A stretch of DNA of 64,000 bases from an uncultured Prevotellaceae bacterium (GTDB lineage: Bacteria; Bacteroidota; Bacteroidia; Bacteroidales; Bacteroidaceae): NCBI GenBank assembly GCA_902794405.1, contig CADBHI010000006.1, forward strand, positions 1 to 64,000, read 5' to 3'. Both the position numbers and the translations under genes were made by a program. Below the pieces are notes generated by a model. The model had not been told where the DNA came from, made no database searches, and saw only the letters and a program-made list of their open reading frames with translations. Positions 10,284 through 53,764 of the stretch are shown one piece after another. Each line of letters begins with the position of its first letter. Position 1 is the first letter of the stretch.

Positions 10284-10309
10284 CCCGTCTGCTACAGACG
10301 GGTTATTTC
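10284..10309. terminator. Terminator between convergent genes
   Basis: CCCGTCTG-CTAC-AGACGGG forms a 7-bp stem followed by TTATTT, just after the MBL gene stop. It overlaps the stop codon of the convergent DUF5106 gene and may terminate in both directions. Confidence 0.65.
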
Positions 10310-11199
10310 AGTGCTTCCATCACCTGGTGTATGCTGGCGTTCTTAAGCATTACCCGCTTGTCGGAAGCTAACAAATAAAGAACAGGTAACGTATTGAGGT
10401 CGTAGAGCGACTTCTCCGTGATAATGCCCCGGTCGTTGGCAATGAGCCACGACTGGGGCAGTTCTTCTTTGGCCTGTTGCCAGGCGGTCTCATCGTCGGC
10501 AGTATCGACGGCTAAGAGCGTCAGCCGTCCGTCGGCAATGGCGCTGTTGATGGCCGAGGAGTGGCGCAACCGGAACAGCAGGTCGCGGCATCGTTTGCAG
10601 TCGGGGTCGAAGAGCAATAGTAGCGTCAGTCGGTCGGTGGCCGTGGTGCTGAGGCACTGTTGACTACCGTCGGCAGTCACGAAGCTGAAGTCCGTTGCCA
10701 CATCGCCCACGCTGTTCTTTGCCATCAGTGTCAGCTGGAAATGGGCACGGCTCCTGATGGCCTCGTTCATCGTTGTCTCCTGGTCAATGTGCTGCAGCAG
10801 CAGCTCATAGAGCACAGGCGAGTAGAGGGGCGACTCCTCACTGTTTAGATAGCGAAAGGCCGTGTCAGTAAAGTACTGACAGGCCTTTTCACTTTGTGCC
10901 ATTCCGGCCGTCCATTGGCTCAGTGCCTCTTGCTGCCCATGGGTAGTGGCGTGAGTCAGCAGTCCCAAGAAGTCGGCCACCGCCTGCTCGGCATAGTCCT
11001 GCCGCAGCAAGGTTGTGTCGCTGTAGTTATACTGCTGCCAGAAGTGGGCCGTCGCATAGTCGGCCCGCCTCTCCGGCTCCAAGATGGAGTCCGGCACCGT
11101 GGGCAACGGGTATCCCTGTGCCCCCGCCCTCAGCAGTATGAGCAGCAATGCTCCAACCAGCGTCAGCCTCATTGGTCTCATTGGTCTTATTGGCCCCAT
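10303..11199 (-). CDS. DUF5106 protein with thioredoxin-like C-terminal domain
   Basis: The 298-residue protein has a signal peptide whose n-region (MGPIRPMRPMRL) is encoded by 9-bp repeat tract B, followed by TLVGALLLILLRAGAQG. Residues about 30-165 are helical (DUF5106-like). The C-terminal domain is thioredoxin-like, with FDPDCKRCRDLL carrying a CxxC motif and later NTLPVLYLLASD with the expected cis-Pro. Such proteins are predicted periplasmic or membrane-tethered redox or scaffold proteins in Bacteroidetes. An alternative start at the internal ATG 11172 would remove the repeat-encoded residues. The gene begins nine bases after the stop of the giant gene and may be co-transcribed with it. 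Confidence 0.8.
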   Translation of the reverse strand: MGPIRPMRPMRLTLVGALLLILLRAGAQGYPLPTVPDSILEPERRADYATAHFWQQYNYSDTTLLRQDYAEQAVADFLGLLTHATTHGQQEALSQWTAGMAQSEKACQYFTDTAFRYLNSEESPLYSPVLYELLLQHIDQETTMNEAIRSRAHFQLTLMAKNSVGDVATDFSFVTADGSQQCLSTTATDRLTLLLLFDPDCKRCRDLLFRLRHSSAINSAIADGRLTLLAVDTADDETAWQQAKEELPQSWLIANDRGIITEKSLYDLNTLPVLYLLASDKRVMLKNASIHQVMEALK

Positions 11200-11214
11200 A
11201 GGCCATATTAGTCC
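11165..11214. repeat. 9-bp repeat tract B across the giant-gene/DUF5106 junction
   Basis: Five units with exact 9-bp spacing (AGCCTCATT, GGTCTCATT, GGTCTTATT, GGCCCCATA, GGCCATATT). The stop codon of the giant gene (11208-11210) and the start codon of the DUF5106 gene (11197-11199) both lie inside the tract. Confidence 0.85.
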
Positions 11215-38960: not shown

Positions 38961-41900
38961 TTACTTCACTGAAAGCTTCTTGGTGAAGCGAATCTCAGAA
39001 GGCTGGACGATGTAGACACCGGCATTGTAGATGCTGGTTTCAATGGTTTCGCCCGGCTTGATGGTGAAGCTCCTGACAACAATGCCGTTGGTGCTGACGA
39101 TGCGCACATCCTCAGTGTAGGGCAGTGTTGAGGTGACCACTATCTTGTGGCGGCCGGCAGTGATGGTGAGCGTGCCGTCAACGCTCTCCTTGCGCTTCTT
39201 CTCTGAGTTTTGAGACTCTGATTCCTCGTCATCGTTGATGAAGAGAATGCTGCGTACAACGCGGGCTCCGCTGTTGCCAGACGTGACGGTGAAGTACGGC
39301 CTGAAGGGCACGGCAGCGGTGCCACCGGTAGCCGTTGCGATATAGCGGTTGCCGTTGGTATTCATCATGTAACCTTCTATCTTCTTGCTCATGTAGTTGG
39401 GCGTAAAGGTGTAGCCGTTATGAGCCACCTCGCCAGAGGCCAGTTCATCGTCGCTGACGCCGATGGTGAGTGCGTCACCAGCTGCGGAAGGTGCGGCGGC
39501 GAAGGTGATGGTCTGCTGACCGAGCTTGACGGGTTTCGTGGCGGCCGTGGTCTTGGCCTCGAACTGTCCGCTGAGGTCAAACTCGTAGTAGGTCTTGCCG
39601 GGGAAGCCGATGATATAGGGCTTGCCGTTAGCCAGTCGCGGATAGCCTTTGAGTGTGCGGCTGGTGTCGTAGTACGTCAGCTGGTAGGTGTCGTCGTTGG
39701 CATCCTTCTCGTGGTGACCGGAGGCGTTGTCGGCACTGTAGTAGTAGTCCCAGAGGAAGGTGTTGGTCACCGTCTTGTCGGCCTCGTCATTGTTAATAGC
39801 AGCAGGATAGCGGAACAAGGCTTCAATCTCATCCTCACTGAGGGTGTTGGTGAGTGATTTGGAAATGTCCTGGTATTCGCGCAGCCAGTACTCATGGTTA
39901 ATCTTGGCAGGATTCGTGTTGTGACTGTTGGCGCTGCCACCGTAGAAGTGGGTGATTTCACCCTTCTGATTGGTGGTGACGAGGTCGGCGACGAAGGGCA
40001 ACGAGACATCGTCCCAGCCCTTGGTCATGTCAACATAGCGGTCGGGCCTGCGCTGGTACCACATGCGTTCGCCGGTAACAAACTGGTAGCTGATAGGACA
40101 GTTGAAGTCTTTCTTATCGATGAGCAGATGATCGCCGTCGGCCGTCAAGTCGCTCTGCACGAGGTGGCCATGTATGCCCATGAGCTTTGATGACTCTACA
40201 GCGGCAACCCGCTTGTATTCCGTGTGCTCGGCAGATGCCGATGGTTCGGTCTTGTCCTTGTAGTCGTCGTAGTCCGGTTCGGTGAAGTAGTCGTTGAGCA
40301 CGGTATAGGTCTTCAGGTTCCCGGCCTCTGACGGTGCATAAGCCAGCAGGTTGGGCGTCTCATCGCGGTTGTTGATGCTCTCCAGACCGTCGTCGTCGAG
40401 CAGCGGTGCGTAGAACTTTCCGCCCTGTAACCCCAGCTTATAGATTCCACTGGCCGCATTGGCCTCATGAGTCCCACTGGCCTCACTGTGGGTGTCGCCA
40501 TGCCCGGCAAAGTCGATAGCCGTCATGTTGGGGTAGGCCTCCTTCACATTCGGGTCGTTTTCATTCTGTCCCTTGGAGTAGGCCACCAGGTTGCACCACG
40601 GGTTGAAGTGGGCCACGTCCATGACTTTCGACTGGTAGTAGGCAGGTGCACGGTATACGCGGTTGCTCTGCTCGCTCTGTACCAGGCGGCCTTCGTTCTT
40701 GTAGAGGTGCGACGGCACGTCTTCGTGGGCCTTTGTCGTATAGTCGTAGGTCAGCATCTGTCCGAAGAAGAGGTAGTCATCGGGCCAGATGGGCGAGAAC
40801 CGGGTCTTACCCAGGTTGTCGGTGTACATTCGCTCCTCTACCTTCTCGGGTATCTTGCCGTCGGCATAGCGGAAGTCGCCGTCGGCATAGCGCTCCTCAA
40901 CGTACTTCAGCTTGCCGGCGTAGCCCGATGAGCAGTATTCGGGATGTGAGTCGTACTTACCGTCGTCATGGCGCGTCAGGGTGCCGCCTTCGTCGGTGAA
41001 GTAGCTGTACACTGTCGGGGTGCCGCTGTGCGTCACATGGTCGTTGTAGCGCTTGTAGAGGTAGAAACCGTTCAGGTTGTAGGCCACGGTACCATTGTAG
41101 AACGCCTTCTCGGGCATGGCCTTGGCGGGACCAGCCTTATAATAGTTGGCTAATGGTACTAACGGGCCTGACGGGTTTTCCGGGTCTTGGACTAACGGCG
41201 CCTCCGGGTAGTAGCAATTGACTACCTGATAGCCGCTTGAGGCCGTGGGATTACCGAAGACGGCCTTGACGGCAGCACTGCCGGTGGCGAATCCGCTGGT
41301 GGCGCTGGTCTTCACCCAGCAGTTTTCTACATAGCCCTCGCCGGTATTGACGATACCTGCTTCGGTGAACGAGCCCGTCACGCCGAGGTTATAGATACTA
41401 CCGCAGAGTTTCTCGAACAGTGAGTGGTCGAGGCCGTTGATGGAGTAGCCGTCGCCGTGGAGGTTGCCCTCGAAGCAGTGTGTGGCGTCGCCGATAGGTG
41501 TCCACGTGCCGGTATGGTTGACGTTGGTATGGAGTATGAACTCCAGGTCTGCGCCGCCTTTGACGTGCGACTCGAGCAGGGCGTGGCCCTTGAAGGGGCT
41601 GTCTGCATTCGTTGTCTTGTCAGTAGTGATGAGACCGTCCTCGTCGAGATTGACGGTGTTCTCATCGAGCAGACTGAGGTCGAAGAGCGACTTCAGCTCG
41701 GTGGCTCCGTCCTCGGGATTGGTGATGTAGATCTTGGAGTCGGACAGATTCCTGCGCTGCACTTCAGGCTCGTCCACGTAGTAGTGGTGGTCGGTATCGG
41801 CCAGGACCTTGGTCAGGTCGTGGTAGTTGGCCACGCTGACGGGCACGTGGTTGGAGTAGGTCTCACCGAGATAGGTCTTGGCGAAGTAAGCCACGTAGTA

Positions 41901-44900
41901 TCCGTTCTGATACCAGTAGAGCAAGTCGCGGTTGGGCGTGTAAGGTATGCCGTTGGTATGGCTTTCGGCATCGTCCAGGTTTCTGAACAGCTTCCATCCG
42001 CCGCCGGTCACCTCGTAGGCACCCGGTTTGACGTTAGGCTCATATAGTCCGATCTTGGTGCCGGGCAGCACTATCTGGGGTACCTGGATATCTTCAATCT
42101 CAGGAATACCGCTCTTGAACTCCACGTGGATGTTCACCACATGGCGTTCGCTGATAGGTGTCAGGTTAAGTCCCGACTCGTCAGTCTCCTCGTAGTCGTA
42201 TTGGTAGATGACGGTGATGATCTTCTCCGTGGAGAGGTCATAGATGTCAGAATTGCGGGCCACGTAGAGGGTGCTGATCTCGGTAGGAGCCACACCGTGG
42301 ATGGTGAAGTTCTTCTGCTTGTTGACAAGGTTCTTGTAAGTGCCTTCCACGCCATCAGCACCTTCTGCGATGACAACGCCAACGGGGACTGTTGCCCCGA
42401 CTGCATAAGTCTGATTGTTGTATGTAGTGATGGATTTTCCACTGCCGTTTTCGCCTATCGTATAGCTCTCGCGACAGTAGTAGAATTTCTTGTTGGCATC
42501 ATCGCTACTAAAGGTGAGGGCGGTAACCAGGTCTTTATTGGACAGTCCATTGTAAACCGAGGCTTCAATGGTCTGGCCTACAGCGTATGGCGTGTTACCC
42601 ACCACAAATGGGGTGTTGACTACATAATAGGTACCTGCAGCATCAACATCGATAGGCGTATAGTGGCGCTGCTCGTTGGGCAGCTTTTCGTATTGTATAC
42701 GCGTGTATGTCGTTCCGTTGGCCAGTGTAACGCCATTGTAGGTCGCGGTTTCACTACCATTATAGGTGGCCTGATAGTCGATGGGCTTTTTAACGGAGTA
42801 GCCTGCGGGGTTGCCCGTATTCACATCGTTGATATCATCTTCACTCGTGTAACTTGTTCCGTCGTACTGGTACTTCTTGCCTTCGGAATAAGCGCCTCCA
42901 GTAGTTGGGGTCAGATAGTCCTTGTCGATAAGCAGGTCGAAGGCATCGTAGTTGAACTCGAAGTTACTGCGGTCTGCAGGCGACATGGCGCTCCAGGCCT
43001 CCAGTCCACGATAGTTATGGCCTGCTTCATAGTAGTTGCCGCCATAGAAACCTTCCGTGGTGCAATAGTAGGCCGGTATCACGCTACTTCTGATAGTCGT
43101 TTCCAGCGACGGGAAGCGTTCCGCGTATTTGTCTATCTCAGCCTCCGTCATACAAGTGTTGAGATAGATGTACTCCGTATCAGAAAGCTTCATGGTGTTG
43201 GTACAGATGTAGGCAGGAGCCACGTAACCCGTCATGGATGCGGCAGCCGTCGCAGACACGGTCTTACCGGGGTACAGGTGCTGATCGCCGGCGATGTATT
43301 CTTTTGTTACGATGTAGGCGGGCTTAAACTGTGCCTGAGTAGTAGTGAGACCGGTTTTCGTCATGCTCTCATAGTTGTCATAGACAGTCTTTGAGATGAT
43401 GTTGCTCTCCTTGTATTCACGTTGTCCGTAGACACCTGACGCATTATTCTTAATGTGGTAGGTTGGACCGCCTTCGTAGCCAGTGCCACCCGTCTGGTTC
43501 TTCTCGCGCGCCTTGGTGACCGTTCCATCTCCGTCATGGTCATCAGCCACTTCTGTGTACCACTTGTTCCAGTCCGTGGGGTTGTTCACTTGGTAGGTCA
43601 GGATGTAGCCCGTGTCGTGGCTCATGTTGTTGGAGGAGCGGAAGAAGAAGTCGAAGTCTTTGTCGGTCTTCACTACACCGTTCTCCTCATAGGTGACGGT
43701 GGGGTCAGAATCCTTCAGACTATTATACTCGCTAGGCAGCATCACGGTACCGGCCGGATAGGGGGTATCGCCAATCTTACAGTCGGCAATGGTGACATAC
43801 GTCTCCTTGACGAACAGTTTCTTGTCTTTATCGCTCAGCGTGTACCAAGTCCAGTAGCTGATGGGGTCGTTCCGCTTGTAGGTCACGTCGTTGATGGTGA
43901 TGGTATGTTCACCTTCGAGCTCCACATTATTGGTCTCGCTGGCGTAAGACGAGTAGTAGGCATGGAGGTTGGGCTGCACGTTCAGCAGCTTCATGGTGCC
44001 GTGTGAGGCAGCCGTGATGGTCAGCGGAAGGTCTACCGTCTCGCTATAGGCATTCGGCGTACCGGTATAGGCCGAGATATACTGGTCGTAGACGTAGACG
44101 TCGCCCTTGATATACCAATAGTGGGCGGGTACGCCGTCGGCAGTCTTGTACCTGCCGCTGATATTGTAGCAGTCGTCGATGATGGTCTGTGTACTATGTA
44201 CGAAGTTGCCCGATGTCTGCCACACCTCCTTGTCGTCATCGACAGTGGCATAGCTGAACTGGGCCTTGGAGACGGCTCCTTGGTTCAAATTGGTCAGGGT
44301 GGTTTGTGTCTTACCCGTAGGGGTACGCTTACCGTGCTCGTTCTTGGCATAGACGAAGCCGCCACCGACGCCCGTCTGCACGTTGATGAGGTCGAGCTCG
44401 ACAACGCCCGTGATGAGGCCCCAGTCCTTCTGGTTAAGTTCTTTACCGGTGCTCTTTTCTGTGGTCAGCTCTAAGTAGACACCCGATGCCAAAGCCACCT
44501 GATTGGCGCTGTTGGCATTGTTGCGCTTGCGGTCGTTGGCGTGGGCTGCCTTCCATTGAGCGTAGGTGGCTGTATTGTAAGCATAGGTATTCCCGTTTAA
44601 CGTAACGCTGGCTTGGTATGTCGTTTTATCTTTATTGTCGCTGGTTCGTACGCCAGTATGGAAGTCGACGTCGCTGGTCAGGGCGCCAAGGAAGTTCACG
44701 GTGTTATAGATACCGAAGTAGTTGCCGTGGCCGTATTTCTGGTTGAGCGACACCTCACCGACACGGTTGATGGTGTACTGGGTGAAGTCAACAATCTCAG
44801 GTACACGGTCTTGGGCTCCCTGCAACACCATACGGCTGCCGAAGACGCCGCAGAAGTCGGCACGCTGGATGGTATTCATGATACGTCCGGCATAGCGCGA

Positions 44901-47900
44901 GAAGATACCGTTCTGAATCCAATAAGCGGAGTTCACCTCGCCGTTACTGTCGATGCTGGGCGTACCTGCGAAGAGGGTCAACAGCTGGTCCTGGCTGATG
45001 GTGGAGCCGGAAATATAGGTATTGCCAATCTTGTCTTGACAGTCTTGTATGCACTTGTATCGTATTTCGTAGTAGGCTTTCTCGCGTTCAAGCAGCGCAT
45101 CATAGTGGGCTTTATCAATATCCTGTTGGTCAAGACTGTAGTAGTCGGTACCATAGTTGGTGATGTTCAGCTCGCGGTAACCGTCGACGAAGGTCAGGTT
45201 GCCGTCACCGTAGAGACCGCCCACATGACCCGTACCTATCGTAATGAGGTCGCGGTTGGCAACGTCGTGGATGGTTGCTGTGGCGTTGCCGAACACCGTT
45301 GTGGTATTTGCATACACGGAGGATGAGCCCGACGACGTGTTACCACCGGCGAATACGGCATTGTGGATGATGATGCCAAAGATGTCCAGCTTACTCCATG
45401 TGTCTGCGGAAGCGGTCTTGTTGCCCAAGGCGTTGAGTTCGTTAATAGGGACGTAGTCGCCTTCGCTATGGGATCCTACCGTGCCCGACGTCACCTCGCA
45501 GTAGGGCTCAATAAGCACCTTGCAGTCCTCGGTGAGTATTTTCTCTGTACCCACTTTGTCCCATTGGCCGCCAGTATATTCACCATTGACATAGGAACCG
45601 CCATAGCATTTATAGTAGTAGCCTCCATCACCGTCTTCAGTTGACTTCTTTCCAACACGTAGAGAACCATTCTGCATATAGGCACTGTAGACGTAGCCGA
45701 TATCGCCGCCGCCGAAGACGTTGCCATAGCCATCGGTCACGCCTTCCTTTGTGCCAATCTCACCACCGTGGATGTGTACTTCGGTCTGTCCGAACACGTA
45801 TCCGTCAGTATATTTCAAACCGCCTTCACCCAGGTTGTTGTAGCCACGGCCGCCGCCGAATACGTTACGGTGTACATGGCCGCTGAACATCTCGACATGG
45901 GTAGAACCGGCCTTATAGATGCCTTGCAGCTCGCGCACCGAGTTCAGCACGCCGCTCTCATGCATCTTACCGCGCCCGATGGCGGCAATCTCGCCGCCGC
46001 CGAAGATGGCATTGCGTATATGGCCGCCGTACATCTTGACATTGGTGTTGTCGACGATGCTGGCATCCACATAACCGCCACCGAAGGCGCAGCCGCTGTT
46101 GTAAAGTCGGTTGGTGCCGTCGCCTTGCCAGGTCTCGTCGTGAATCTTCTCCTGGTAATAGCCGCCATTCTGATCCACGATAGTGGTCAGCGTCTGATCC
46201 GAGGGTGCGGAGTCGAAGTGGCGATAGCCAATGTAACCGTCGTAGATGGTCAGGTAGGTGGTACCCCAGACGGCACCGCCCTCGCCGCCGCCGTACACAT
46301 TACGCTCGATAGAAGGAAGACCATCGGTGAAGCTGGTGGCATTCTTCTTGCCCACCACGACATGGGTCTCTCCGTCGGTATCGGCGGCCATCGACCCGTC
46401 AACGTCGCCCGTATGATGGCCCACGGCGCCTTCCCAGCCGCCACCATAGGCGTTACGCACCTTGCCGCCCTTGATATAGGCGTTGCTGCTGGCGATGAAG
46501 TTCTTCTTTTTCATAATGTCCTCTACGGGACCACCTTCGCCAGCAGCATAGAGGTCCTGTCCCACGGTACCACCAAGCAGGGCGATGTAGGTAGTGCCTG
46601 CGATGACGGCATCTATACCCTTGCCGCCGCCATAGGCATAGCGGGTCACGGTTGCTCCTGGGTTAATAAGGACGTTGGTGTTGTATTTGTAGGTCTTGGT
46701 ATCGCGGTCGTCCATTTCTTCCGTCTTTACCAAGGGGTTGCTCAACGTGAACGGACTGCTGGTGTAAGTCGTGAAGTTGTCATCGGGGTTGTCATTGGGG
46801 GGATAGTATAGGCCAAAAGACCAAGCCTTTTTCCAGGCATCAGACCATTCTCCAGTGAAATCTGATGTCAGAATGTCTGAAGGCCTATTGGTCTTATATT
46901 CCTGCATATACGCCTGTACACTTTCTGCATTATAGACTTTTCCGCTTTCACCGCCGCCATAGACACGATAGACAGTGGCACCGTTTTTCAGGTTCACCTC
47001 GGTATATTCTGCCCAGGTGTCCTTACCGCAGCCGGCTCCAAATACTGTTCCTTGATAGCCGTTATTCTTATCTGACCATACCGTTGCCGAAACGTTCACC
47101 TTTGTAAAGACCGTCCTGCGCTTACTGTTGTTGCCGCCATAGATGGACGTCACCTGGGCATCACCGCTTTCGTAGTTCACGTTACTCTCGTAGACGTCGC
47201 AGGGCAAGAGCGTGGCGTTTCCGTATGCACCACCGAAAATTTTGTTGAGGCTGATGGTGGAGGAGGTGAGGGCACCGCTTACTGACGACCCTTTCTTCGG
47301 CACGTTCACCACGGTACGACGGGTAATACCCTCGTTGTAGCTGCCGCCATAGGCCGCATCAATCTCTCCGCGCATCAGGTCCACGACGGCAGAGTGATTG
47401 TCGAGAGCTGCCTGATAGTCATTGGCATTAGAGGGATTGGACGCCGGATTCACGACCGTTCTCATGCCTAAGCCGTCGTAAGCCCCCGCTCCGAACACCT
47501 CGGTGCTCGCAAACCGGCCCTTGCCAGGAGCTAAAAAGTCTACGAGCACGTAGCTGCGGTCCTGCGTGTCGTCACCATCGCGGTCACCACTGAATCCTTC
47601 TCCGGCACCGAATACCTTGGTGACACTGTTCTTGGCATTGTCATTGGGCTTGAAATTCACAAAAGCACTTTCCATGTAGGGCTTTTGGGCAACGCGTCCG
47701 GAATACAGGGCAAGGGCATAATCATAATCACCGAAGCAGCCGCCGAAGATATGTTCTACGCGCCCCTGGCTATACTCTATATAAGCCGAGGCCACAGGGC
47801 AGCTTGCATTATACACCATGTGAGCAACGGCTGTGCTGATTCTGTCAGTGAAATCGTAACTGCTCTTGACACGTCCGCCCAGGTCATTGCCGCCGTAGAT

Positions 47901-50678
47901 ATGGTCGCGAACCCAAGGGAAGCCCGCCTCACCGGCCATGTTACGGCCCACGTAGGTCTCGGTATGGCCTTCGATGTCGGCATTACATGAGCCGGCAAAC
48001 GAGTTGAAGATTCGGCCGTTGCCTAAGTAGATGTGCGTGCTACCCATAATATTTCCTTCGAAAGCACCGCCGTAGATAAACTCCACCTCGGCCATGTCGG
48101 CAGCATCGTCGGCAGACCCTCTGGCCACACCAGCGTCTCCCGATGCGTTGTTCAGGTTGATATAGGTGCTGTATTTTTCATCGCGGTAACTCTGCGCGGT
48201 AGCATCATTCGGGATATTGGCATCGTTCGGATTGCCGATGATGCCGGCCTCGCCACCGCCGAATACTTGGAAGACATAGCCCCTGTTCAGGTTGATGGTG
48301 GCGTTGCCCCATATCTCAGAGCCCACACCATAGCCGCCGCCGAACACGTTGAGGGCTGATCCCAGCACATCCATGCCTTGTTCGTCGAGTATGACACCGG
48401 AGTTGCGGGTTGTAATCGTATAAGCCTTCTCTTCGTACAGCTTCGGCTCGTAACCTGCTGGCCATGCTGCGCCACTGGGTTTAGTGGTTGTCACCACATC
48501 GAACACCTCGTTACGATTGACCAGTGGCTCATTGATGTTGATTTCCACGTTACCGTTCACGTAGCCCGAGGTATAGCAGCCACCGTAGATGTTGCCACCC
48601 AACAGACGGCGGTCTGTGTCATCACGGGTAGCAGCACCCGTCTCAGTCACATTAGGCACATTGTTGCCGGTGGAGGCACTGACGGTGTTCCACACCAGTC
48701 CTTGGCTCTTGTCGGCTTCATTTTTCCACCGCATGGGTTTTATCCTGATACCACCAAAATCATTCTCGTCCGGGTTGAAGTTCAGCACGAGCTTGTTGGG
48801 GTTCAGAGCTTCTTCTTCTGCTGTCAGCGCCGTCTTGATCCCTCCTTTGTAACTGGCATTGAGCTTGTTGGCATCTGTATGCTCTTCTGAACTCCATTGT
48901 TCGTCTATGTTGGCATTGTTACAGCCACCCACAATCTTGTTATATATAATAATAGGTTCGTGGAAGTTCATCGTGTTAGTACCGGAGTAGGTCATGCTAC
49001 CTCGGTTACCGCCCAGGAAGAGCGAGCCGATCATCGTCGAATAGACAGCATTGCTGATCGCATCGTCATAATCATCAACGGACAACTTCGGCATGTGGTC
49101 CATAGCCACGGCTTTCATGTATTCAGCGAACACGTCAGCATCGGTCAGGTCCATGGAGTTGAACTTTGTGTCATCGTCGGTCTTGTTGGTGCTCTTGAAG
49201 ATTCGCAGAACGTCGTCATCACTCTCGTTCTTCACCATGTCCTCACCGTTGTTGCCTAAGAACACATTCTCGGCGATGACATAGTCACCTAACTTCAGTT
49301 CAACAATGCCGTCTGCACCCACCTTTGTCTGGCTGGGATTCAACAGCGTGGCACTGTTGCCGCCCAGATAGATGGAGCCTCCGATGATGGTGGGGGAATC
49401 CTCAGAACCATCCACTCGGATGGACACCTGCTCAGAAACAGGGCGAACCAGGTTCAAGGCTGTCACGGACTTCATTTTTTCTGCGATTTCCGATATGCCA
49501 GCATTGCTCAGCACTGTCGTCTTGTCATAAAAGAAGTCGCTGTAGCGTGGCTCGGTTTTCAGTTTATCATTGTCGGTATAGGGATAGGAGCCGTTTCCAC
49601 CGCCGTAGATATTGCCGGTGATGCTGGTAAAGAGACCGATGGCATTGCCAAAGTAGACACGTCCCGACACATCGTTGCCGCCATAGATATTTGTGATGTT
49701 CCCGCTTCGGACTCGCACGCGGGCTGCGAAGTTGGCTGGGAACTGGTACCCATCAAGTCGGGGAACGCTGGAAGCAACGACGCCCGGACTGTTTTCGGGG
49801 CGTACGTCGGCCTTACGGCATCCGCCGAACACATTCGTGACCGTGATGTTGGAATTATCGCCGATCTCCAGCAGCAAGCCTTCAGGACACGTCATGGGGC
49901 CTTCGTTACCGCCGCTGTAAAGGTTCTCAATCTTACCGGCCATCAGATTCCACGTCGGACGGATGTGCATCTCGGCCTTGTTGTTGCCGCCGAAGACGCG
50001 TGAGAAGTTGTATACACCGGCCTGATTAAAATATTCGGTGTTGATACCCATGTACTGAAGCGTCGCGTCAGAAAGCAGGTCATCACCAGCATCACTGTCG
50101 TCGGCACCGTTGATGTCTAACGGGACGCTGGTGTTGTTGATGGAAATCTGGGCTGTAGAGGTCACCGTAGCTGCGTTACCGCCGGCATAGACATAGCCGA
50201 AGGTGCCGCTCTTGATGTTGACAGAGGCATTGCCGATCTCAGGCTTCTGTTTGTTGTAGTAGGGGTTATCCTGAGAGGTGGGCTCTCCTTCGCTGTCCAG
50301 GATCTTTTCATGCTCGTAGTCATAGTCGCCATTGCCGCCGCCGAAGAGCTGGCCTACGAATAGGTGTTTGCCGCCGTCGGTGGTGACGGTACTGCCACCG
50401 CTCACGGTACCGGCTATGTCGTTACCACCAAACACGCCTTTGATGGTAATCATCTTGCTGTCATCGAGGTCTGGGCCGCCATGAATCTTGACGGAAGAGG
50501 AACCATTGACACCAGCCTGGCGTGCTCCGCCAAACACATTGCCGCCAATAGTTATCTGAGCCACTCCACAGAGTGGTATCAGCAGGCATGCCACCAGGCA
50601 TGCCACCCTATAAGCCCCATAAGCCCTATTGGCCCCATTAGCCCCATTCTTCCTATAATTTCTTCTCTTCTCTGTCAT
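38961..50678 (-). CDS. Giant secreted GGG-repeat protein 3 (3905 residues) with T9SS sorting domain
   Basis: The signal peptide n-region (NGANGANRAYGAYRVA) is encoded by 9-bp tract D and is followed by CLVACLLIPLCGVAQ. Residues up to about 1830 are GGG-type repeats like those of the protein at 11208 ('VFGGxxxxGxV', 'VYGGGEGGAVWG'). A middle region (about 2270-2780) has at least six 40-50-residue modules starting like 'PAYxxT...Y..G'. A GLUG-like segment lies near residue 3070 (FEGNLHGDGYSINGLDHSLF). The last 75 residues match a type A T9SS C-terminal domain (VRIVSTNGIVVRS...NAGVYIVQ...KKLSVK), predicting export through the type IX system and surface attachment or release. The ATG lies right next to the stop of the upstream fimbrillin-like gene. 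Role unknown; a pilus-associated or adhesive role is inferred from context. Confidence 0.87.
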   Translation of the reverse strand: MTEKRRNYRKNGANGANRAYGAYRVACLVACLLIPLCGVAQITIGGNVFGGARQAGVNGSSSVKIHGGPDLDDSKMITIKGVFGGNDIAGTVSGGSTVTTDGGKHLFVGQLFGGGNGDYDYEHEKILDSEGEPTSQDNPYYNKQKPEIGNASVNIKSGTFGYVYAGGNAATVTSTAQISINNTSVPLDINGADDSDAGDDLLSDATLQYMGINTEYFNQAGVYNFSRVFGGNNKAEMHIRPTWNLMAGKIENLYSGGNEGPMTCPEGLLLEIGDNSNITVTNVFGGCRKADVRPENSPGVVASSVPRLDGYQFPANFAARVRVRSGNITNIYGGNDVSGRVYFGNAIGLFTSITGNIYGGGNGSYPYTDNDKLKTEPRYSDFFYDKTTVLSNAGISEIAEKMKSVTALNLVRPVSEQVSIRVDGSEDSPTIIGGSIYLGGNSATLLNPSQTKVGADGIVELKLGDYVIAENVFLGNNGEDMVKNESDDDVLRIFKSTNKTDDDTKFNSMDLTDADVFAEYMKAVAMDHMPKLSVDDYDDAISNAVYSTMIGSLFLGGNRGSMTYSGTNTMNFHEPIIIYNKIVGGCNNANIDEQWSSEEHTDANKLNASYKGGIKTALTAEEEALNPNKLVLNFNPDENDFGGIRIKPMRWKNEADKSQGLVWNTVSASTGNNVPNVTETGAATRDDTDRRLLGGNIYGGCYTSGYVNGNVEININEPLVNRNEVFDVVTTTKPSGAAWPAGYEPKLYEEKAYTITTRNSGVILDEQGMDVLGSALNVFGGGYGVGSEIWGNATINLNRGYVFQVFGGGEAGIIGNPNDANIPNDATAQSYRDEKYSTYINLNNASGDAGVARGSADDAADMAEVEFIYGGAFEGNIMGSTHIYLGNGRIFNSFAGSCNADIEGHTETYVGRNMAGEAGFPWVRDHIYGGNDLGGRVKSSYDFTDRISTAVAHMVYNASCPVASAYIEYSQGRVEHIFGGCFGDYDYALALYSGRVAQKPYMESAFVNFKPNDNAKNSVTKVFGAGEGFSGDRDGDDTQDRSYVLVDFLAPGKGRFASTEVFGAGAYDGLGMRTVVNPASNPSNANDYQAALDNHSAVVDLMRGEIDAAYGGSYNEGITRRTVVNVPKKGSSVSGALTSSTISLNKIFGGAYGNATLLPCDVYESNVNYESGDAQVTSIYGGNNSKRRTVFTKVNVSATVWSDKNNGYQGTVFGAGCGKDTWAEYTEVNLKNGATVYRVYGGGESGKVYNAESVQAYMQEYKTNRPSDILTSDFTGEWSDAWKKAWSFGLYYPPNDNPDDNFTTYTSSPFTLSNPLVKTEEMDDRDTKTYKYNTNVLINPGATVTRYAYGGGKGIDAVIAGTTYIALLGGTVGQDLYAAGEGGPVEDIMKKKNFIASSNAYIKGGKVRNAYGGGWEGAVGHHTGDVDGSMAADTDGETHVVVGKKNATSFTDGLPSIERNVYGGGEGGAVWGTTYLTIYDGYIGYRHFDSAPSDQTLTTIVDQNGGYYQEKIHDETWQGDGTNRLYNSGCAFGGGYVDASIVDNTNVKMYGGHIRNAIFGGGEIAAIGRGKMHESGVLNSVRELQGIYKAGSTHVEMFSGHVHRNVFGGGRGYNNLGEGGLKYTDGYVFGQTEVHIHGGEIGTKEGVTDGYGNVFGGGDIGYVYSAYMQNGSLRVGKKSTEDGDGGYYYKCYGGSYVNGEYTGGQWDKVGTEKILTEDCKVLIEPYCEVTSGTVGSHSEGDYVPINELNALGNKTASADTWSKLDIFGIIIHNAVFAGGNTSSGSSSVYANTTTVFGNATATIHDVANRDLITIGTGHVGGLYGDGNLTFVDGYRELNITNYGTDYYSLDQQDIDKAHYDALLEREKAYYEIRYKCIQDCQDKIGNTYISGSTISQDQLLTLFAGTPSIDSNGEVNSAYWIQNGIFSRYAGRIMNTIQRADFCGVFGSRMVLQGAQDRVPEIVDFTQYTINRVGEVSLNQKYGHGNYFGIYNTVNFLGALTSDVDFHTGVRTSDNKDKTTYQASVTLNGNTYAYNTATYAQWKAAHANDRKRNNANSANQVALASGVYLELTTEKSTGKELNQKDWGLITGVVELDLINVQTGVGGGFVYAKNEHGKRTPTGKTQTTLTNLNQGAVSKAQFSYATVDDDKEVWQTSGNFVHSTQTIIDDCYNISGRYKTADGVPAHYWYIKGDVYVYDQYISAYTGTPNAYSETVDLPLTITAASHGTMKLLNVQPNLHAYYSSYASETNNVELEGEHTITINDVTYKRNDPISYWTWYTLSDKDKKLFVKETYVTIADCKIGDTPYPAGTVMLPSEYNSLKDSDPTVTYEENGVVKTDKDFDFFFRSSNNMSHDTGYILTYQVNNPTDWNKWYTEVADDHDGDGTVTKAREKNQTGGTGYEGGPTYHIKNNASGVYGQREYKESNIISKTVYDNYESMTKTGLTTTQAQFKPAYIVTKEYIAGDQHLYPGKTVSATAAASMTGYVAPAYICTNTMKLSDTEYIYLNTCMTEAEIDKYAERFPSLETTIRSSVIPAYYCTTEGFYGGNYYEAGHNYRGLEAWSAMSPADRSNFEFNYDAFDLLIDKDYLTPTTGGAYSEGKKYQYDGTSYTSEDDINDVNTGNPAGYSVKKPIDYQATYNGSETATYNGVTLANGTTYTRIQYEKLPNEQRHYTPIDVDAAGTYYVVNTPFVVGNTPYAVGQTIEASVYNGLSNKDLVTALTFSSDDANKKFYYCRESYTIGENGSGKSITTYNNQTYAVGATVPVGVVIAEGADGVEGTYKNLVNKQKNFTIHGVAPTEISTLYVARNSDIYDLSTEKIITVIYQYDYEETDESGLNLTPISERHVVNIHVEFKSGIPEIEDIQVPQIVLPGTKIGLYEPNVKPGAYEVTGGGWKLFRNLDDAESHTNGIPYTPNRDLLYWYQNGYYVAYFAKTYLGETYSNHVPVSVANYHDLTKVLADTDHHYYVDEPEVQRRNLSDSKIYITNPEDGATELKSLFDLSLLDENTVNLDEDGLITTDKTTNADSPFKGHALLESHVKGGADLEFILHTNVNHTGTWTPIGDATHCFEGNLHGDGYSINGLDHSLFEKLCGSIYNLGVTGSFTEAGIVNTGEGYVENCWVKTSATSGFATGSAAVKAVFGNPTASSGYQVVNCYYPEAPLVQDPENPSGPLVPLANYYKAGPAKAMPEKAFYNGTVAYNLNGFYLYKRYNDHVTHSGTPTVYSYFTDEGGTLTRHDDGKYDSHPEYCSSGYAGKLKYVEERYADGDFRYADGKIPEKVEERMYTDNLGKTRFSPIWPDDYLFFGQMLTYDYTTKAHEDVPSHLYKNEGRLVQSEQSNRVYRAPAYYQSKVMDVAHFNPWCNLVAYSKGQNENDPNVKEAYPNMTAIDFAGHGDTHSEASGTHEANAASGIYKLGLQGGKFYAPLLDDDGLESINNRDETPNLLAYAPSEAGNLKTYTVLNDYFTEPDYDDYKDKTEPSASAEHTEYKRVAAVESSKLMGIHGHLVQSDLTADGDHLLIDKKDFNCPISYQFVTGERMWYQRRPDRYVDMTKGWDDVSLPFVADLVTTNQKGEITHFYGGSANSHNTNPAKINHEYWLREYQDISKSLTNTLSEDEIEALFRYPAAINNDEADKTVTNTFLWDYYYSADNASGHHEKDANDDTYQLTYYDTSRTLKGYPRLANGKPYIIGFPGKTYYEFDLSGQFEAKTTAATKPVKLGQQTITFAAAPSAAGDALTIGVSDDELASGEVAHNGYTFTPNYMSKKIEGYMMNTNGNRYIATATGGTAAVPFRPYFTVTSGNSGARVVRSILFINDDEESESQNSEKKRKESVDGTLTITAGRHKIVVTSTLPYTEDVRIVSTNGIVVRSFTIKPGETIETSIYNAGVYIVQPSEIRFTKKLSVK
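40451..40488. repeat. 9-bp repeat tract C inside giant gene 3
   Basis: Degenerate 9-bp units (GGCCTCATG, AGTCCCACT, GGCCTCACT) lie in frame and encode a His/Ser/Glu/Ala-rich segment (SEASGTHEANAASG). Confidence 0.55.
50604..50648. repeat. 9-bp repeat tract D in the signal-peptide n-region of giant gene 3
   Basis: Five exact-spacing units (CACCCTATA, AGCCCCATA, AGCCCTATT, GGCCCCATT, AGCCCCATT) encode NGANGANRAYGAYR. Beside them a 12-bp unit (AGGCATGCCACC) is duplicated and gives VACLVACL. Confidence 0.85.
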
Positions 50679-51810: not shown

Positions 51811-53037
51811 TTACCAGTTATATAATGGATGTTCTGCGGAACCCTTGGAAGTCCATTTGTTGATGCCTACCTGGATGTTGTCGAGTACCACGCCGCCGCT
51901 TTCAAGGATCTTGAAACGGTAGGTGTACTCATAGCCAGGTGCCCACGTCATGTATTCTGCAGGAACCACCGCCGTCTTGGGTTCACCGCCGTTAGCAATG
52001 ACCTGCAGGGTATAGGTGCCCTGATTGGCAATGGGCAGCACGGCATACCAGTGTTGCGGACTATTGTCGTACTCCTCGGGGTCGCTGCTGTTTTGTGGGG
52101 TGTAGTCGACATCGGCCTCGTAGTAGTCGATGGTGAAGTCTTCCAAGAATGTCGAATAGTCAGGGGTACTGGTCCACGACTCCCTGGTCTTGGTGCCAGT
52201 CAGCGGGTACCTAATGGTGACAGACCCTTTTGTGGCTATCGACTTGGTGTTGTCGGTCGGTCCGAAGTGGATACCGGAGAGGGCACTCCGCCCGAACTCG
52301 AGTCCTTCTACGAAGGTGAACATAAAGCGCACCCGCGCATAGGGCTTTATAAACTCCAGCTTCACCGGCTGGCCGAACTGCTTGTCGGCATAGTCTGCAA
52401 GGCTGCCGGTGCTGAACCACAACTTCGAGTAGTAGGTCGTAGCGTCAAGGCTGCTCGGGTTTGAAGCATCAACCCCCAGCGTCAGCGTTGCGTAAGTCCC
52501 ATAATCCCCATTGGCCCCGTTGGGCTCATAGGACCCATAAGTCCAACCCGTACTCTTGCTTCCCGTTACTCCGAAGAAGCGGTAGGCCTTGGCCGACCAG
52601 TCCCAGTATTTGATGGTTTGGTCGTCGGGGGTGGAGCCTTGTCCCACGTACTCCCAGCCGTCGGTGTTAGACGTGGTGGTCCTGGCTGAGTTCTCTATCC
52701 AGTTCACGGTGAATTCAGACATCACGGTTTGGTAGTCGGTGTAGTCGACGGTGCTGTTGTCCTCAGTGACGGCGGTGTTCTTAAAGCCCCAGACATAGAA
52801 TGTATGTGTTTCGTCTTTCAGGGGAGTGGTGGCACGTGTCGTTGATTCATTGTCATTCACGTCGTCTGCCACCCTGCTGCTAAAGCTGATGGGTGTCACG
52901 TCACCCCTCACTGATGACGACTCCTCGTCAGAGTTACACCCCATTAGCCCTATAAGTCCTATTGGCCCTATAAGCCCCATAAGCCCTATGGGCCTCATAG
53001 GCCCTATCAGCCCCATCAGCTTCTTCAGCCCTCTCAT
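51811..53037 (-). CDS. Fimbrillin family lipoprotein (Mfa_like_1), 408 residues, repeat-encoded signal peptide
   Basis: The N-terminus MRGLKKLMGLIGPMRPIGLM... is a lipoprotein signal whose hydrophobic part is a run of Met/Ile/Gly/Leu/Pro triplets encoded by nine 9-bp units. It ends in the lipobox LMGC. The mature part has STTRATTPL, then the Mfa_like_1 features NTDGWEYVGQGS, QTIKYWDWSAKAYRFFG and KPYARVRFMF, and C-terminal TWAPGYEYTYRFKI. The start overlaps the four-helix-bundle gene stop by four bases. Fimbrillins of this class are exported as lipoproteins and assembled at the surface after proteolytic processing. Confidence 0.85.
   Translation of the reverse strand: MRGLKKLMGLIGPMRPIGLMGLIGPIGLIGLMGCNSDEESSSVRGDVTPISFSSRVADDVNDNESTTRATTPLKDETHTFYVWGFKNTAVTEDNSTVDYTDYQTVMSEFTVNWIENSARTTTSNTDGWEYVGQGSTPDDQTIKYWDWSAKAYRFFGVTGSKSTGWTYGSYEPNGANGDYGTYATLTLGVDASNPSSLDATTYYSKLWFSTGSLADYADKQFGQPVKLEFIKPYARVRFMFTFVEGLEFGRSALSGIHFGPTDNTKSIATKGSVTIRYPLTGTKTRESWTSTPDYSTFLEDFTIDYYEADVDYTPQNSSDPEEYDNSPQHWYAVLPIANQGTYTLQVIANGGEPKTAVVPAEYMTWAPGYEYTYRFKILESGGVVLDNIQVGINKWTSKGSAEHPLYNW
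52494..52547. repeat. 9-bp repeat tract E inside the 408-residue fimbrillin gene
   Basis: Six units with 9-bp spacing (AAGTCCCAT, AATCCCCAT, TGGCCCCGT, TGGGCTCAT, AGGACCCAT, AAGTCCAAC) encode GSYEPNGANGDYGTY in the mature protein. Confidence 0.75.
52936..53016. repeat. 9-bp repeat tract F encoding the lipoprotein signal peptide core
   Basis: Nine consecutive units of 9 bp (consensus AAGCCCCAT/AGGCCCTAT) run without a break, immediately before the lipobox codons. Changes in unit number would alter the signal peptide by three residues each without a frameshift. Confidence 0.9.
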
Positions 53038-53690
53038 CGCCTCCCTCCCTTCTGGGCCAGCAGACCCTCTAATTCTGCTATCCGCGCTTTTAGAGCAGCG
53101 TTCTTGGATTCCAGCTCCGCGATGCGAGCCTTCTGGTCGTTGCGGTAGCCTAAGCGGGCGGCCGTCATCCGCTCACGGATGCCGCCTTCTTCCACGAAGT
53201 CCTTCTGGATTCGGTCCAGCAGGCGCCCCATCATCACATCATACTGACAAATCAGCGTGATGGCGATGTTACACAGAGCTTCGGGAGACCGTTGTTCAAT
53301 GCCGGTGGTGTAGTCCTTTGGCCGGTTATGCTTCTTGCTGTACTCCTGTATCTGCTGTACTCGCGGGTCGTTGACCGACCATTCCTCCAACTTCCTGGTG
53401 CGCAGGTAGTCCTTGTAGTCCTCCAGCGTCTCCTTCATCGAGGCACGGGCTACGCCTAGCAGCTTAAGCTCCGTCTCAGCCGAGGTGGAGGCGGCGGAAC
53501 AGCCTTCGGCGATGTTCTGCTTACCGGAACGGGCAGCCTGCACCACCTGGTCGATGGTGCGGTCCTTGCGCTCCACAAAGTAGTGGTGCGCAAAGAAGTA
53601 GGTGATATCGTAGATGCACTCCGCCTTCTGGTAGACCAGGAGTCCACGATAGTTTCCCTTCTTCGGGAGGAATGGCTGCGGTTCTTCCAT
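53034..53690 (-). CDS. Four-helix-bundle protein (S23/IVP family) with C-terminal coiled coil
   Basis: The 218-residue cytoplasmic protein opens with FLPKKGNYRGLLVYQKAECIYDIT. It contains DRTIDQVVQAARSGKQNIAEG, the S23/four-helix-bundle signature, and 'LGVARASMKETLEDYKDYLR'. The C-terminal 35 residues are a leucine-rich coiled coil with a duplicated ARIAELE. Members of this family occur beside rRNA intervening sequences, and related ones as accessory (Avd) proteins of diversity-generating retroelements. Neither context is seen here, and no reverse transcriptase is present. It overlaps the next fimbrillin gene by four bases, so it is the first gene of that operon; tract G precedes it. Confidence 0.82.
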   Translation of the reverse strand: MEEPQPFLPKKGNYRGLLVYQKAECIYDITYFFAHHYFVERKDRTIDQVVQAARSGKQNIAEGCSAASTSAETELKLLGVARASMKETLEDYKDYLRTRKLEEWSVNDPRVQQIQEYSKKHNRPKDYTTGIEQRSPEALCNIAITLICQYDVMMGRLLDRIQKDFVEEGGIRERMTAARLGYRNDQKARIAELESKNAALKARIAELEGLLAQKGGRR

Positions 53691-53710
53691 TTTTTTCTTT
53701 CTTTTTTATT

Positions 53711-53764
53711 GGCCCTATTAGCCTCATTGGCCTCATTGGCCTCATAGGCCCAATCAGTCTCATT
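53711..53764. repeat. 9-bp repeat tract G in the leader of the four-helix-bundle gene
   Basis: Six exact-spacing units (GGCCCTATT, AGCCTCATT, GGCCTCATT, GGCCTCATA, GGCCCAATC, AGTCTCATT) end about 20 bases upstream of the ATG. A GC-rich palindrome (GGGCTCCGAGCCC, 53773-53785) follows. Confidence 0.85.

Follow-up and report, generated by a model that had tools for sequence, protein, structure and literature searches.

In the 64-kb stretch of DNA analysed here (the window), nine 9-bp units encode the predicted signal-peptide h-region of a fimbrillin-like ORF. We conclude, with a probability of roughly two in three, that this tract is the downstream one of two arrays flanking an S23-type (TIGR04258) gene, whose product, as we predict, recognises the repeat belonging to it and is likely what drives or sustains array spread. 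The most likely reading is a system that pairs S23 four-helix proteins with repeats in the manner of REPtrons, the signal peptide being a by-product. Under this model, each four-helix protein would bind its own short, dyad-symmetric unit, as DNA or RNA and probably as an oligomer; arrays would spread in trans by some copying step, as REPs are thought to do with their cognate TnpA-REP; and the downstream array would be a captured one whose reading in frame supplies the neighbouring gene with its predicted signal peptide. As nine is divisible by three, copies would survive in signal peptides, loops and termini, where slippage could then alter length by three residues. The gene of the short S23-type relatives could lie in the loop of a hairpin with array stems. 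We infer binding, the copying step, propagation and any host benefit.

The 9-bp tract and its copies in the genome

Read on the minus strand from 53037 to 52936, the DNA gives ATG AGA GGG CTG AAG AAG, nine 9-mers and TGT (Cys). The units (52939..53019, minus strand) follow one another as CTGATGGGG CTGATAGGG CCTATGAGG CCCATAGGG CTTATGGGG and then CTTATAGGG CCAATAGGA CTTATAGGG CTAATGGGG, and the N-terminus of the ORF, a 408-aa entry of the ORF list (51811..53037, minus strand), translates as MRGLKK-LMGLIGPMRPIGLMGLIGPIGLIGLMG-C. The array was picked up by TRF; a 3-unit pattern gave 11 matches in the window against none in 100 dinucleotide shuffles, and the 160-bp stretch containing the tract had a period-9 score of 31.4, compared with a maximum of 13.4 in 2000 shuffles. 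The initial annotation, in which a hydrophobic core written in 9-bp repeats lay between MRGLKK and the cysteine, was thus correct on this point; its list of residues (Met, Ile, Gly, Leu and Pro) covers most of the tract, which also contains one Arg (PMR). The assignment to the fimbrillin family is tentative: some homologs have PF13149 and one (P0113) is so named, and Pfam and NCBIfam profile searches gave no match for the ORF itself. Its ATG shares bases with the stop codon of the ORF upstream (ATGA, 53034-53037). Additional Met codons at residues 8, 14, 20 and 32 may serve as internal starts; of these, M32, which lies two residues ahead of the Cys, is the sole one from which translation would skip almost all of the tract. 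A weak second array within the ORF (52506..52538, minus strand; SYEPNGANGDYGTY; TRF score 31) had a period-9 score of 12.2, inside the shuffle range, and the 3-unit pattern does not match there. The segment CNSDEESS, beginning at the Cys after the tract, resembles SDDDD, which PMC5080379 proposes as the consensus signal for surface export in B. fragilis.

The four places with the highest period-9 scores in the window, namely the tract and positions 53701, 50601 and 11161, belong to one unit family. The other three, all on the minus strand, correspond to the upstream flanking array of the four-helix gene (53708..53764, TRF and pattern), an array in the N-terminus of the 3905-aa ORF 38961..50678 (50606..50648, NGANGANRAYGAYR frame, TRF and pattern) and an array at the start of ORF 10303..11199 (11167..11202, MGPIRPMRPMRLTLVGALLLILL, 3-unit pattern). 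When the genome as a whole was searched (164 contigs totalling 3.82 Mb, 89% complete), the 3-unit pattern was found at 23 forward places in ten arrays, against a single place for the reversed pattern. Besides the four arrays just described, there is one in a sensor-like ORF (L020), where it encodes a segment resembling a signal peptide, one at the N-terminus of a HAD phosphatase, one each in the interior of an M24 peptidase, of a U32 peptidase and of an ORF of alpha-2-macroglobulin type, and one in an intergenic site before asnS, these gene names being read from translations and not from database assignments. Their reading frames differ (MGLIGP, NGANGANRAY, HEPYRP, SPISPIGP), and the tract is not signal-peptide specific. 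At two sites (window 53690-53713 and L016 3000-3042), the array is followed, in the direction of the gene, by a similar A-rich stretch (ATAAAAAAGAA-GAAAAA) that stands immediately ahead of the next ATG.

Three of these arrays were compared with aligned relatives. The position of LDEAYGANGTHGGYETE in the M24 peptidase is taken, in the 14 relatives aligned with it, by loops that are shorter and unrelated to it; the 80% identical protein of G013, a genome with no unit-1 arrays in the pattern scan and no TIGR04258 gene in the family search, reads LQPYIGKPEISS--LTE, and others read LRPAVEAGG-----QTE. In the HAD protein, aligned with 14 relatives, the array makes up the N-terminus, and the HAD protein of G014 (L147), a genome with unit-1 arrays, carries a unit-like run, DRTYKTYKTYM, at the corresponding place in another frame. 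For U32, the array falls within a linker whose sequence and length vary across 18 other aligned sequences. The arrays therefore occupy tolerant stretches, and exact empty sites are unreadable for all three because these stretches are variable. The M24 peptidases of G001 and G008 (L182, L183) contain repeat-like insertions (QCTMHNAQCTM; TVNCELCTMNC) at a different loop, which suggests another repeat family.

The length of the tract is variable. P0001 (98% identical, 411 aa, protein sequence only) reads MRGLKKLMGLIGPMRPIGLMGLIGSIGLIGLIGLMGC, exactly one triplet more, so that the repeat number is not constant and changes in three-residue steps, as had been proposed. Five loci in other genomes, with four-helix proteins 78-83% identical, keep the order four-helix to fimbrillin-like; at this locus in other species, repeat-built predicted signal peptides of very different lengths occur in L066, L067 and L070, and L068 has almost none. 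In L069 the four-helix and fimbrillin-like ORFs are fused, as they also are in P0056, P0108 and P0119, and in these fusions the array forms a linker between the two parts. At least three uninterrupted repeat-type triplets near the N-terminus were found in 37 of the 120 listed homologs (1319 found; 0 of 200 shuffles), and many others listed have ordinary signal peptides. The best 12-residue hydropathy was 1.97 in the window ORF, 2.25 in P0001 and 1.93 in an ordinary homologous signal peptide.

The additional triplet of P0001, the wide variation in units among homologs and the two further window ORFs with N-terminal arrays are what a contingency locus would produce, in which gain or loss of units tunes the export of a surface subunit. 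Retention of the hydrophobic stretch in the compared sequences argues that tolerance is enough to account for this variation, and the unit is not confined to signal peptides. The idea that the repeat exists to tune or switch export, put forward in the initial annotation, was not upheld: the unit is found in several frames, in enzyme-like genes, in an intergenic site and beyond the four-helix gene, and many homologs manage with an ordinary signal peptide. We consequently set the contingency locus aside as the main account because the unit occurs in several frames and gene types, and consider it very improbable.

The four-helix-bundle gene and its flanking arrays

Between the upstream (53708-53764) and downstream (52939-53019) arrays lies a 218-aa ORF (53034..53690, minus strand) that profile matches assign to the four-helix-bundle TIGR04258 suffix type, a probable member of the S23/IVP superfamily. 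It scored 73.8 bits with TIGR04258 (cut-off 40) and 31.5 bits with TIGR02436 (cut-off 24); PF05635 (23S rRNA IVP), at 29.4 bits, fell below its cut-off of 33.8. An AF2 model (pLDDT 85.5) was submitted to Foldseek, which listed 2gsc as the best match, and also 2rld, with probability up to 1.00 and a target TM of 0.76, the E values exceeding 0.1 (best 2gsc, E 0.19) despite the probability of 1.00. 2gsc was the only PDB sequence match, and the profile and fold searches revealed no catalytic domain and no HuH family in the protein. The C-terminal tail of the suffix proteins (L025, L036, L037, window 53034-53136) resembles a coiled coil, is of variable length and, in some members, is encoded by tandem repeats of 21 or 24 bp. 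Four further suffix proteins (L046, L049, L050, L051) end in a CPxCGKPMIKR... segment, which we take to resemble a topoisomerase-type zinc finger; 8-bp CGAAATAA-type arrays lie near L050 and L051. Among the open-access papers searched, none mentions TIGR04258 or "four helix bundle suffix"; a phage table in PMC5524665 includes a four helix bundle gene without tying it to repeats.

TIGR04258 was detected in 17 of 40 genomes, our own included, and many of the 30 loci fetched from them adjoin 8-10 bp tandem arrays whose unit is gene-specific and, where an array stands on each side, often common to the two. Flank statistics were computed on the best 80 of 544 confirmed TIGR04258-type loci. In this set, 39 of the 77 flanks on the upstream side had an array, against 4 of 73 control windows placed 1.4 kb away; downstream, the figures were 47 of 75 against 8 of 68. 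Of the 86 flanking arrays, 72 had period 9. The upstream and downstream arrays of the same gene scored 25.6 on average against 12.6 for permuted pairs, a value reached in none of 10,000 permutations; 27 of 73 own pairs scored at least 25, against 0 of 61 control pairs, and the own partner ranked first in 22 of 73. Furthermore, across the 62 array-bearing loci of these 80 (18 having no array by this criterion), the unit co-varied with the protein (r was 0.458 overall and 0.279 for identities below 65%, neither value being reached in 5,000 permutations), which is an association and not proof of recognition because gene and flank are inherited together. The units were dyad-symmetric beyond column shuffles (mean z 1.45), 31 of 70 arrays, which are not independent of one another, reaching p of 0.05 or less. 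At suffix loci, the direct orientation of the flanking arrays was the better one in 21 of 27, the units being near-symmetric.

Short, suffix-less TIGR02436-only genes had been chosen as a negative control. TIGR02436 matches occur in 31 of 40 genomes, suffix genes included, and 26 of 27 loci of the short type were usable: L318 was dropped for having no ORF, L320-L322 were left out as suffix genes, and at L297 and L317 the ORF picked was longer than the matched frame, so that flanks may be misplaced. Arrays were found at 16 upstream and 14 downstream flanks of these 26 loci, 29 of the 30 with period 7 or 8. Own pairs again shared their unit (0 of 10,000 permutations); a score of at least 25 was obtained for 14 of 26 pairs, 13 of which were inverted, and for none of 24 control pairs. 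Restriction of the system to suffix (TIGR04258) genes was rejected, TIGR02436-only genes being positive too, with 7-8 bp periods, and windows away from the genes served as the working control.

Dispersed arrays and ORF-less hairpins

Three units (unit 1, TCRGA and CTAGA) were scanned in the 40 genomes, unit 1 being fully listed for four. Arrays were present in 4/4, 5/5 and 7/7 genomes with a gene carrying the respective unit, against 3/36, 3/35 and 2/33 of the others (Fisher 3.8e-4, 8.5e-5 and 1.9e-6); outside the gene's own locus, the counts were 4/4 vs 3/36, 3/5 vs 3/35 and 3/7 vs 2/33 (3.8e-4, 0.018 and 0.03), all these p-values being optimistic because the searches had already been run when units were assigned by eye, and because the genomes are relatives of one another. 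For CTAGA, G007 was counted as gene-positive though its flank reads CTAGT, and G008 (10-bp CCTAGAACC) and G015 (ACTAGGGAT), with other CTAG-cored units, were not; counting both gives 7/9 vs 2/31. CTAGA dispersal in G009 was deduced from the count (192 per strand). The reversed-pattern control scores in G002 because the reversed unit-1 pattern happens to match the TCRGA unit.

The association has exceptions. G003 (99% complete), G010 (99%) and G022 (81%) showed no four-helix suffix gene by family or alignment search and nonetheless carry unit-1 or CTAGA arrays; G023 (56% complete) has unit-1 arrays and no gene flanked by unit 1; and G008, G018 and G033 have a few TCRGA matches without a gene of that unit. 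Matches were listed only at the gene's own locus for TCRGA in G000, for G019, and for CTAGA in G001, G005, G006 and G014. Among 60 dispersed arrays, picked from listings and not at random, 35 overlap an ORF of at least 120 aa (22 interior, 9 near N-termini and 4 near C-termini) and 25 lie in none. Arrays also stand at draft-genome contig ends (L254 and L255, the ends of C61 and C71 of G002); such arrays may break assemblies and be under-counted.

From two short-type loci, L302 (G006) and L299 (G009), we predicted before the scan that G006 and G009 would be rich in AGGAGT arrays; a single AGGAGT-type array of G006 was already known at that point. These two loci resemble each other in their neighbours, have a tRNA close by and probably represent a single inherited locus. 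The scan gave 88 arrays in G006 and 166 in G009, against 1 to 7 in six other genomes and 0 in 32; the reversed control gave 6 in G009 and 0 in the other genomes. Twenty AGGAGT sites were then fetched, seven of them chosen because both strands were listed close together, and 8 of the 20 contained an inverted pair, always oriented as around the gene. Six of the 8 ORF-less pairs have AGAC...GTCT inner borders on both sides, with arrays 60-67 bp apart and a total of 116-164 bp; L323 is without the 3' border, and L326, read in part only, has a gap of 304 bp. The inner borders of the gene-bearing copies match those of their own genome (AGACATTACC...TATTGTCTGA in L299, AGACAATAG...TTTGTCTTC in L302). 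Judged from these borders, the ORF-less hairpins look like a non-autonomous derivative, and the border identity between ORF-less and gene-bearing hairpins looks like copying. As seen in L323-L330 and L339 (G006, G009), the ORF-less hairpins measure about 120-160 bp and combine array stems and AGAC...GTCT borders with a variable interior. Rfam returned no family for the hairpins, finding two tRNAs only, and no rRNA in L029, L299 or L302.

Two alternatives bear on these distributions. Neutral minisatellites, expanding by slippage in tolerant places with the four-helix gene as a bystander, would explain the arrays without a gene in G003, G010 and G022 and the location of arrays in variable stretches; we consider this improbable, in view of the unit shared by both sides of the gene, its co-variation with the protein, the outcome of the AGGAGT prediction and the control windows away from the gene. 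Alternatively, the arrays could be regulator sites and not propagating cargo, bound by the protein at its own gene (autoregulation) and elsewhere, and shaped by local slippage and selection. Arrays on both sides of the gene, dyad-symmetric units and the genomes that keep arrays at the gene only are consistent with such sites, whereas the overlap of 35/60 dispersed arrays with ORFs, 22 of them interior, and the ORF-less hairpins that carry the inner borders of the gene-bearing element, which looks like copying, render them rather unlikely.

Relation to known repeat systems and implications

Our preferred reading, a protein paired with its own propagating repeat, is closest to REPtrons, which PMC8266576 presents as TnpA-REP/RAYT genes with cognate REPs. 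In both, a gene stands beside its own short symmetric repeat, with dispersed copies and inverted pairs; gene presence tracks repeat abundance, and repeat and protein co-vary, with G003, G010, G022 and G023 as exceptions here. Unlike the HuH tyrosine transposase of REPtrons, the protein here is an S23-type four-helix bundle with no known catalytic activity; the repeats are 7-10 bp tandem units and not 20-50 nt REP palindromes with a GTAG tag; and many copies lie inside ORFs (35/60 dispersed arrays overlap one), whereas REPs are mostly intergenic. The second relative is the rRNA intervening sequence, described in PMC4990558 as an S23-family ORF bordered by complementary sequence in 23S rRNA. Around the short S23-type relatives the borders are inverted arrays (13 of 14 strong pairs); at suffix loci direct arrays prevail (21 of 27), with near-symmetric units. 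Unlike those sequences, the loci studied here lie in protein-gene neighbourhoods (the window neighbours of the four-helix gene are protein ORFs, not an rRNA gene), their borders are tandem arrays, ORF-less copies are dispersed, and the window gene has direct, near-symmetric arrays.

Two other types of repeat found in protein genes invite comparison. Rickettsia palindromic elements are longer single repeats that lie in frame inside protein genes and are not known to have a partner gene; the in-frame position is shared, whereas 9-bp arrays and a partner gene are found here. With phase-variable simple sequence repeats, a surface protein has a coding tract in which units are gained or lost; variation in repeat number is present here too (one triplet in P0001), but nine-base units keep the frame and give no on/off frameshift. 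Because our tests place the system in neither REPtrons nor rRNA intervening sequences, we regard it as a new kind, which can be likened to REPtrons in the way it would work though it is not a member. We propose tentatively, at somewhat less than even odds, that S23-type proteins drive a new class of bacterial propagating repeats. In this class a protein would recognise its own 7-10 bp unit, the copies that bear the gene would lie between arrays or in hairpins with array stems, and from them ORF-less hairpins and in-frame arrays would spread, adding new peptide segments, among them signal peptides, to host genes.

According to PMC4990558, proteins of the S23 (IVP) type are without known function. 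Their pairing with repeats of their own provides a concrete candidate function, the recognition of 7-10 bp arrays, and, if this is true, the S23 ORF of the rRNA intervening sequences would gain a function as well. REPtron-like systems would then acquire a protein class unrelated to HuH transposases, and the dispersed short tandem repeats of these bacteria would have a likely source. Moreover, repeats would be seen to give rise directly to new signal peptides and loops of surface proteins.
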